Part shown: in pieces, positions 7,663-63,892 of the stretch
Layout: every line of letters starts with the position of its first letter
How positions within the stretch are numbered: the stretch's first letter is position 1
NCBI RefSeq assembly: GCF_037971845.1
Contig: NZ_CP150227.1
Coordinates: forward strand, 2,976,001-3,040,000
Reading direction: 5' to 3'
DNA length: 64,000 bases
DNA from: Paenibacillus sp. FSL R5-0766
GTDB lineage: Bacteria; Bacillota; Bacilli; Paenibacillales; Paenibacillaceae
Notes under the pieces: model-generated
What the model was told of the DNA's origin: nothing
The model's database searches: none
The model's input: the letters and a program-made list of their open reading frames with translations, nothing else
Made by a program: the position numbers and the translations under genes

Positions 7663-7875
7663 ATGTTTCGGAATAACCATACTTTATTTGCGTGAATTCT
7701 GTCAACAGAGATTTAGTTGAGGGTTAAACTAAAGATTATTTACCCAGAGAATATGACGACAAAATAACCATGTGATCGCTTCTACTCCAGATTTTTCGAT
7801 TCATTTATAGCTAAAAACTCCTTTCCTGTTATTAGGTTTTGACTTTGTAATAAGAGTGAGGTTAAAATATATAAA

Positions 7876-8608: not shown

Positions 8609-8803
8609 ATATATAAATTGAACTTAACATTTACACAAAACGGAGAGGACAGAAATAAGCTGAGGAAGCGGAGCGTTCGCCTTTATCCCCGGATTTTTCC
8701 TTTATAAAAAGGAATCGTAGAAAATCTGGGGATAACAGCGATCAGAAGGTTGTTCTGTCATTGGAGTGACTAGTGTAAATATTCTTTAGTTTAATTTATA
8801 TAT
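8609..8803 (+). repeat. Dispersed inverted-repeat element, copy A1
   Basis: About 195 bp between the TetR gene and the dehydrogenase gene. The ends are inverted repeats (ATATATAAATT 8609-8619 with AATTTATATAT 8793-8803), continued inward with a small bulge to ATTTACAC / GTGTAAAT. Inside are GACAGAA / TTCTGTC (8648-8654, 8753-8759), a 14-bp stem (8684-8697 with 8721-8734) and an apical hairpin (TTTCCTTT..AAAAGGAA). The core box GGGGATAACAGCGATC is shared with copies at 37966-38197 and 63702-63892. I see no convincing coding potential. It may be a MITE or a structured RNA. Confidence 0.85.
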
Positions 8804-29647: not shown

Positions 29648-29786
29648 GGAATCGATTCTGCAGAAGCGATAGCGTTCGTATTTGTCTCCTAATTTTAACC
29701 TTTGAAAAATACGATGAAGAAAATTTGGAGACAACGACGATCTAAAGAACGATCCTTCGCTGTAACGGCCACTCAACAGAATCCAA
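29648..29786 (+). repeat. Inverted-repeat element related to the dispersed family, type B
   Basis: About 139 bp between the synthetase and aminopeptidase genes. It shares the layout of the A-type elements: GATTCTG / CAGAATC at the ends (29654-29660, 29777-29783), AAGCG-N2-AGCGTTCG, a 14-bp stem TGTCTCCTAATTTT (29683-29696) with AAAATTTGGAGACA (29720-29733), then ACGATC. Compared with copy A1, three base pairs of the stem differ but remain paired. It lacks the AT-rich outer arms. Not protein-coding. Confidence 0.7.
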
Positions 29787-37965: not shown

Positions 37966-38197
37966 CTATAAAATCTGTCTAGAGGATATTTACCTTGCCA
38001 CTTCGATGACAGAACAACCTTCCGATCGCTGTTATCCCCTGATTTTTTTGATTCAATTTTATAATGGTGAAAATCTTGGGATAGCGTATGCTTCCGATGC
38101 AGCTTTCTTTCAGAAAGCTTTTAGGCGAACACTTCGTTTCTTCAGGTTTTTTTCTGTCCTCTCCGTTTCGTGTAAATGTTTAGTTCATCTTTTATAG
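37966..38197 (-). repeat. Dispersed inverted-repeat element, copy A3 (reversed, with insertion)
   Basis: About 232 bp with 8-bp terminal inverted repeat CTATAAAA / TTTTATAG. Read on the minus strand it has ATTTACACGAAACGGAGAGG, GACAGAA, GTGTTCGCC, the stem arms, GGGGATAACAGCGATCGG and TTCTGTC, as in A1 and A2. About 40 extra bases sit between GTTCGCC and the left stem arm and form their own hairpin (AGCTTTC/GAAAGCT at 38101-38120). A plus-strand frame of 63 codons inside it is not believable as a gene. Confidence 0.8.
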
Positions 38198-63701: not shown

Positions 63702-63892
63702 TATATAAGTTGAAATAATACATTTACACCTAACGGAGAGGACAGAAAAAAGCTGGAAAAGCGAAGCGTTCGCATTTATAACCGGATTTTTCCCTTTAGA
63801 AAAGGGAATCGGTAAAATCTGGGGATAACAGCGATTGGAAGGTTATTCTGTCATCGTAGTGCAATGTGAAAATCATTATTTCAACTTATATA
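63702..63892 (+). repeat. Dispersed inverted-repeat element, copy A2
   Basis: 191 bp with perfect 18-bp terminal inverted repeats TATATAAGTTGAAATAAT (63702-63719) and its complement (63875-63892), and TA on both outer flanks. Inside are ATTTACAC, GACAGAA / TTCTGTC, AGCGTTCGC, the stem arms (63777-63790 with 63814-63827, two mismatches), an apical hairpin (TTTCCCTTT / AAAAGGGAA) and GGGGATAACAGCGATTGG. It is about 85-90% identical to copy A1 in the interior by eye. It starts 30 bases after the heme oxygenase stop. Confidence 0.9.

Follow-up and report, generated by a model that had tools for sequence, protein, structure and literature searches.

The window, the whole 64,000-nt stretch of the Paenibacillus sp. 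FSL R5-0766 chromosome analysed here, contains three copies of an intergenic repeat that share one order of sequence blocks, as the sequence-only reading had described. A family profile places them at 8611-8801 (+), 37972-38195 (−) and 63702-63891 (+). With the TA dinucleotides at both ends included, copy 1 occupies 8610-8802 on the forward strand and belongs to a class of about 190 bp (177.8 bits); its site is empty in the related genome G011. Copy 2 (37967-38196, reverse strand, 143 bits) belongs to a class of about 230 bp that carries an extra 38-nt hairpin module, and its site is empty in G011 and filled in G022, G023 and G033. Copy 3 (63702-63892, forward strand, 159 bits) is again of the shorter class, with a match to model R1 at 63722-63873 (E 9.4e-33). 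Two further profile matches are more remote: a degenerate or diverged relative of the core at 29654-29742 (+; E 3.6e-7) and a weak, diverged one at 7722-7806 (−; E 2.9e-4).

The sequence GGGGATAACAGCGAT has three exact matches in the window and one with two mismatches, against 0.11 expected. As a correction to the earlier description of the core box, copy 1 departs from it at a single base (GATCAGAAGG). The box that we used for counting lies at 8728-8749 (+) in copy 1, where it has one mismatch to GGGGATAACAGCGATYGGAAGG. Copy 1 folds as a single rod (z = −5.9 against 200 shuffles), in agreement with the view that the entire element is one long rod. TA target duplications, more than the AT-richness of the terminal sequence, are the best guide to its limits. 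Scans for terminator-like sites around the three window copies found none. We do not favour a promoter carried by the element, as the 3 promoter-like sites in the three regions are at shuffle level. Copy 3 has no match in the plasmid and phage collections.

Copy number in the genome and the genus

The sequence-only reading had predicted a large number of copies in the genome, and was to be dropped if the core had none beyond the window. In the 7.0-Mb single-contig genome, the 22-nt core has 83 + 106 = 189 matches with up to 3 mismatches, while the reversed-pattern control has 0 + 0. Core matches occur in 68 of 75 genomes of the genus, FSL R5-0766 having the highest count. The exact core pattern is present in at least 120 stretches of named genomes, and all 80 titles among the matches listed are Paenibacillus, including amylolyticus, xylanexedens, pabuli and taichungensis. 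The family is also present in a genome with the title Paenibacillus polymyxa ISL-58 (L047, L070, L102), whose species assignment may be worth checking. The exact core pattern occurs, too, in eight IMG/VR stretches (L151-L158) from seven contigs; the flanks of L156-L158 are common to the chromosomal stretch L039, which places copies in prophage-like regions or at their edges.

Among 229 copies collected for analysis of open reading frames and neighbours (196 with both neighbours), 12 overlap an ORF of at least 80 aa, as called by a crude ORF caller, and 217 do not. In having no coding capacity, the family behaves as an IS630-family MITE (miniature inverted-repeat transposable element) does.

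IS630-type ends and insertion at TA

Copy 1 starts with a left terminal repeat, TATATAAATTGAAC (8610-8623, +), that has 2 mismatches to a 16-base IS630-type end, and closes with a right terminal repeat (8788-8802, +) that has 2 mismatches to the same end, inverted. Insertion sequences (ISs) of 1166-1171 bp in G006, G069, G081 and G063 carry TATATAAGTTGAACTAAAGA or close variants of it at their termini, and a C precedes the TA at either end. The consensus right end of the element agrees with these ISs at 21 of 21 bases (L312), 20 of 21 (L311 and L290/L310) and 22 of 24 (L295), and BLAST against the IS ends returns pieces of 13 to 24 bases with 87-100% identity. The IS interiors show no similarity to the element past short chance pieces. 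Reading frames of L295, L290 and L311 match the IS630 model NF033545 of NCBIfam.

IS630 elements duplicate a TA on insertion, for which reason we searched for the DDE_3 domain: it is found in 21 of 75 genomes of the genus, with 0 matches in FSL R5-0766. The best NF033545 match in that genome scores 27.2 bits against a cut-off of 100, so that an autonomous partner, which is usual for a MITE and not strictly required, is not found there. Sites were compared over 400 kb each from this genome and three relatives, plus the regions syntenic with the window. Several hold a copy in one genome and none in another. The clearest, at about 2957209 of G022:C1 (against G011) and about 1710978 of G033:C1 (against the window), show one TA before and a TA on both sides after insertion, the AT-rich ends leaving several others ambiguous. 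Among 101 copies, the left TA is preceded by C in 62 and the right TA followed by G in 55, so the preferred target is C|TA|G. Duplications longer than TA show no clear excess among the 101 copies, a few small classes lying above expectation (e.g. 2 against 0.2). Single copies are dispensable, their sites being empty, shortened or inverted in close relatives.

In the window genus, then, IS630-type terminal repeats close the rod, and its insertion has been at TA, with C|TA|G preferred. Such ends and insertion sites, together with the lack of an own transposase, make the family an IS630-type MITE without a partner in this genome. A plain selfish MITE could be all there is: a recent burst from few masters with a functionless core, whose antisense copies were purged because an antisense rod blocks transcription. 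The ends, the insertion at TA, the empty sites and the copies shortened by deletion all suit such a burst, which we nevertheless consider improbable in view of what is found in other genera.

There, 49 of 52 copies have neither IS630-type end within 4 mismatches and two (L388, L389) have one. The sole copy with both ends, 2 mismatches each, lies at about 1292-1446 of L363 (G136, g29), so capture by IS630 is not confined to the window genus. The ends differ between genera, being IS630-type in the window genus and TGAAAAA..TTTTTCA in another.

Fold of the core

As best explained, the element is structured around a core that measures about 150 nt and is modelled as a three-way junction (helix P2, mini-hairpin P2a and the P3/P4 arm) within a long base-paired rod. 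The rod also carries a symmetric CGNAGNG internal loop that flanks P2. All parts are given here on the forward strand of copy 1. The 5′ half of the symmetric loop (8641-8647) has CGNAG in 33 of 35 other-genus copies; the 3′ half (8762-8768, TGGAGTG in copy 1) has CGNAG in 31 of 35, TGTAG or TGGAG in 3 and neither in 1. The strands of P2 (8648-8661 and 8747-8759) are complementary and covary across genera. Mini-hairpin P2a (8668-8674) has the form GC-GNA-GC, and its two pairs read GC:35 / AU:9 and CG:39 / UA:4 / UG:1 in the alignment A4 described below. The predicted helix P3, UCGC at 8677-8680 with GCGA at 8738-8741, is nearly invariant, and P4 (8683-8696 with 8722-8735) shows compensatory AU/GC and CG/UA changes. 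Copies from other genera share the core box and the junction block (GNAGAAGC, a GNA or GNNA mini-hairpin and TTCGCCTTTNTCC, with variants), the block lying outside the search pattern by which these copies were found.

Size classes and change in place

The two classes of genus copies, of about 190 and 230 bp, differ by the 38-nt hairpin module. Its presence varies at one site that is otherwise 99.5% identical between this genome (312972) and G022 (305621). The module sits between the 5′ strands of P3 and P4 in copy 2 (37967-38196), L369, L373, L388 and L389; L385 has it in opposite orientation, as if it were itself mobile. At another site (369404-369630 here, 368307-368535 in G022) the interior is inverted between the two species and the left terminal repeat is common to both. 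Some copies are shortened by deletion, and identity of element and flank at shared sites gives a mixed picture.

Long near-perfect palindromes are prone to quasi-palindrome correction, and hairpin-templated mutation of this type might alone keep the arms complementary, with no selection involved. The in-place inversion and the gain or loss of the module would fit. Such templating should, however, erase unpaired motifs, and the CGNAG loop on both strands, the junction strands and the 2×2 loop between P3 and P4 all persist unpaired; we regard it as very improbable.

Several arrangements were seen outside the window genus. Copies of lineage g21 (L395, L397, L398), whose termini read (G)TGAAA(AA)..TTTTTCA(C) or similar, sit within the apical portion of a second copy, which suggests that rod loops can be insertion targets; the host copies belong to the same family and are partly degenerate. 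In G131, copies lie beside a terminator-like hairpin with apparent long direct repeats (L399, L403), e.g. CAAAAATGCGGGGCTGCT on both sides in L399. G159 has three tandem copies with a spacing of about 245 bp (L405:2119-2763). The g33 copies L383, L384 and L385, from three genomes, stand upstream of the same gene start (AGGAGGACAACCATGTACAAA where read long enough) and are candidates for leader copies retained over a long time.

Range across the order

The sequence-only reading had proposed a search of related genomes and a covariance model, and both find the family well beyond its genus. The core, with up to 2 mismatches, occurs in 45 of 148 genomes of the family Paenibacillaceae and in 8 of its 19 genera sampled (control 0). 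Most positive genomes outside the genus have 1-8 copies, G163 (73) and G172 (34) being exceptions. The analysis of other genera drew on 30 of these loci and on 20 additional stretches. A covariance model built from the alignment A2 (see below) and roughly calibrated matches 198 of 246 genomes and 33 of 46 genera of the order Paenibacillales at E ≤ 0.001. As scoring stopped at 12 candidates in any one genome, the order-wide copy numbers are floors. In 299 genomes drawn from the class, a draw from which other families of the order may be absent, 27 match at E ≤ 0.0001, all of them of the window genus or its family. A selfish burst does not give a presence in 33 of 46 genera with the compensatory changes described below.

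Searches of the window and of 20 of the 30 loci from other genera yielded no Rfam 15 family at gathering score, and a riboswitch of a known class was set aside on these grounds. A permissive Rfam search with copy 1 gives 9 matches (8 microRNA families and 1 cis-regulatory stem-loop family), all far below gathering.

Covariation

Alignment A2 combines 13 copies from the genus with 22 of the 30 loci from other genera (L361-L390). It omits copies with the extra module, partial copies, L129 (missed by the junction pattern) and L241 (missed by the core pattern); copy 1, likewise missed by pattern, was put in by hand. Over its 35 rows and 24 pairs, 95.2% of cells are paired and 76 cells are doubly changed, against 23.4 in shuffles that, like the permutations below, ignore relatedness; none of 500 shuffles reaches this number. 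Ten pairs are doubly changed, against 6.0 in shuffles (2 of 500). In alignment A4 (41 sources and 46 matches, giving 44 distinct rows fitted to the covariance model), 13 of 24 pairs are doubly changed against 7.1 in shuffles, a value that 0 of 500 reach. One of five measures, the number of pair types, is not above shuffles (52 of 500 in A2, 70 of 500 in A4).

The changes fall in several helices. In P2a of A4, GC is replaced by AU in 9 of 44 rows and CG by UA in 4 of 44; in P4, rows switch between AU and GC and between CG and UA. P2 differs in sequence among lineages and yet keeps its pairing: in 22 copies, complementarity is 10.14 within copies against 4.42 with permuted 3′ strands (sd 0.56, maximum 6.82 of 10,000). 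For the outer helix P1 in the 35 other-genus copies scored for the internal loop, the values are 10.75 and 7.31 (sd 0.30, maximum 8.55 of 10,000). The search pattern covers the 3′ strands of P3 and P4 in whole or in part, and some of the conservation seen there therefore stems from how copies were chosen. This bias does not reach P1, P2, P2a or the 5′ strands.

Within the genus the picture is different. RNAalifold on 95 copies gives 10 pairs, of which 0 covary, and P2 complementarity is only 8.92 within copies against 8.05 between them. Pairing of the terminal repeats is 12.89 within copies, 11.17 when permuted and 12.38 with the nearest relative (p = 0.02), or 12.15 with the five nearest relatives (p = 7e-5); it is mostly common to subfamilies. 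The exact core by which most copies were picked is present in 77 of the 95, so invariance within the genus is partly due to search selection.

The alignments point to compensatory change of the kind expected for a structured RNA family, above the controls. The sequence-only reading was to fail if the family had the ends of an IS-derived MITE and no covariation: the IS630 ends are there, and so is the covariation, which is strong but visible against other genera only. For P1, P2, P2a and P4, such compensatory changes are not given by a burst of copies and make a plain MITE insufficient as an explanation, which the P2 and A4 results already weaken. Compared across genera, the core is older than its transposon ends, and the helices around the kept core change sequence and stay paired.

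Orientation relative to genes

For orientation, 253 copies of at least 100 bits (225 with both neighbours), from the window genus with the eight viral-contig stretches among the sources, were reduced to one copy per cluster of related flanks. Among the resulting 148 independent loci, 82 copies are sense and 18 antisense between co-directional genes (p = 6e-11), 26 lie between divergent and 22 between convergent genes. In divergent pairs the copy is nearer the gene to which it is sense in 21 of 26, and for 17 of the 22 copies between convergent genes, the 3′ end lies closer to the stop codon of the antisense gene. In genome tiles with 31 copies, shared sites included, densities per 1000 TA and orientation are 1.76 for sense, 0.95 for divergent, 0.29 for convergent and 0 for antisense positions. 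The depletion of co-directional antisense copies, together with the 17 of 22 convergent copies nearer the stop of the antisense gene, is what a purged selfish MITE would leave; that scans found no terminator-like site around the three window copies would count against it.

Replication was considered as a source of the bias in 78 copies of this genome, a set deliberately enriched for lagging-oriented copies, with origin and terminus assumed from coordinates. Leading-oriented copies comprise 33 sense, 1 antisense, 4 convergent, 7 divergent and 4 of uncertain context, and lagging-oriented ones 5 sense, 8 antisense, 10 convergent and 6 divergent. After correction by hand, convergent plus divergent copies are about even between the strands, which argues for transcription rather than replication, and an insertion preference for a replication strand is not favoured.

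In other genera, sense copies number 23 and antisense copies 14, a difference that is not significant (p = 0.19; 49 matches, 46 with both neighbours). On inspection, we saw no common class of gene downstream of the copies. The g21 copies end in TTTTTC or TTTC; our terminator finder flags few flanks, a result on which we do not rely.

Wobble pairs bear on which strand folds. In 95 genus copies, the sense strand has 121 G.T against 13 A.C, or 42 against 13 when one dominated pair is left out. In P3 and P4 of A4 the counts are 25 and 0, while over all 24 pairs they are 34 and 21 and not significantly different (p = 0.10), the A.C cells there being attributed to imperfectly aligned P2 columns. The excess of sense-strand G.T speaks for the sense strand being the molecule that folds, although transcription-linked C-to-T mutation could mimic it.

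The main rival to a folded RNA is folded single-stranded DNA used for movement, with the core as a DNA hairpin for a mobility enzyme, its structure kept for transposition and the genus bias a by-product of selection against harmful insertions. DNA hairpins recognised by mobility enzymes are familiar from REP and attC sites, and GNA mini-hairpins are very stable in DNA. The several dispersed copies in other lineages, the g21 copies with ends (G)TGAAAAA..TTTTTCA(C), some of which are nested within each other, and the lack of a significant sense bias outside the window genus would also be in keeping with a DNA hairpin. In the window genus, however, movement is already explained by the IS630 ends and insertion at TA, and the bias goes with transcription. 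We think folded DNA unlikely as the selected molecule, though it deserves more weight than a plain burst.

Comparison with known repeat families

The RUP element of Streptococcus pneumoniae, a proposed MITE of IS630-Spn1, is 107 bp long and intergenic, with 108 copies (PMC2229807). The Paenibacillus element resembles it, as described there, in being intergenic, in having ends like those of an IS630 IS and in its TA target. According to PMC3049150, RUP has a weak tendency to follow the coding strand (60.9% leading) and is in excess between convergent genes; the pneumococcal BOX, RUP and SPRITE repeats are 61-63% on the leading strand and likewise in excess there. The copies described here, in contrast, are sense in 82 and antisense in 18 co-directional pairs and have a low density in convergent ones. 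An order-wide structured core likewise sets them apart from RUP, as far as RUP is described in PMC2229807 and PMC3049150.

The bcr repeats of the Bacillus cereus group are also Firmicute elements, of 100-400 bp, with up to 130 copies of bcr1; as given in part of PMC6542083, they move in association with a TTTAT motif, and the first such element was shown to be confined to one species group, unlike the TA insertion, IS630 ends and order-wide core seen here. Correia/NEMIS repeats of Neisseria, as summarised in PMC2229807, come in two sizes, the longer one having an internal sequence of 50 bp; their transcripts are base-paired, and they have TA at the termini. Our element is like them, by description, in its two size classes and TA termini, and unlike them, as they are described in that source, in its core that covaries across genera.

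With structured RNA families of Rfam the element shares covarying helices around invariant unpaired motifs, and differs in that neither the window nor the 20 of 30 other-genus loci give a gathering-score match. In open-licence literature on Paenibacillus repeats, MITEs, IS630 or structured RNA, the element was not found in titles or abstract openings among the matches listed, nor was it in general bacterial literature on MITEs, IS630 and orientation searched at the same depth. The available text of a review of prokaryotic MITEs (PMC10969869) has no occurrence of Paenibacillus or IS630.

A mobile structured element

The sequence-only reading had preferred an RNA-like element to a passive MITE. 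The covarying cross-genus core bears out the first half, the IS630-type MITE ends in the genus do not bear out the second, and the family looks like both. We lean towards an undescribed structured element that probably acts as RNA in mRNA leaders and is mobilised by IS630 ends. The selected molecule would be the sense strand as a folded RNA, part of mRNA leaders and intercistronic regions, that may act in cis, e.g. in processing, stability or read-through. Upstream of genes, insertions in sense orientation would be tolerated or even of use, whereas those in antisense would be removed. The copies would have been moved in trans by an IS630 transposase that this genome now lacks.

More tentatively, the family may be an old structured RNA class in Paenibacillales whose core has repeatedly become mobile via different transposon ends, the folded RNA being the lasting unit. 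In the window genus, it might then have spread as a portable sense-strand leader element before perhaps a hundred genes.

Bacterial MITEs are often treated as transposon debris. A covarying, order-wide core that outlives its transposon ends would make the idea of a mobile repeat as a functional RNA module directly testable. The about 190 copies between genes are jumping elements with transposon ends of a known type, and their preserved centre points to an undescribed structured RNA hitch-hiking on those ends, one without an Rfam 15 match at the loci searched (the window and 20 other-genus loci). Judged by its number of copies, this structured element is common in a large bacterial group, and would mark many leaders for study.
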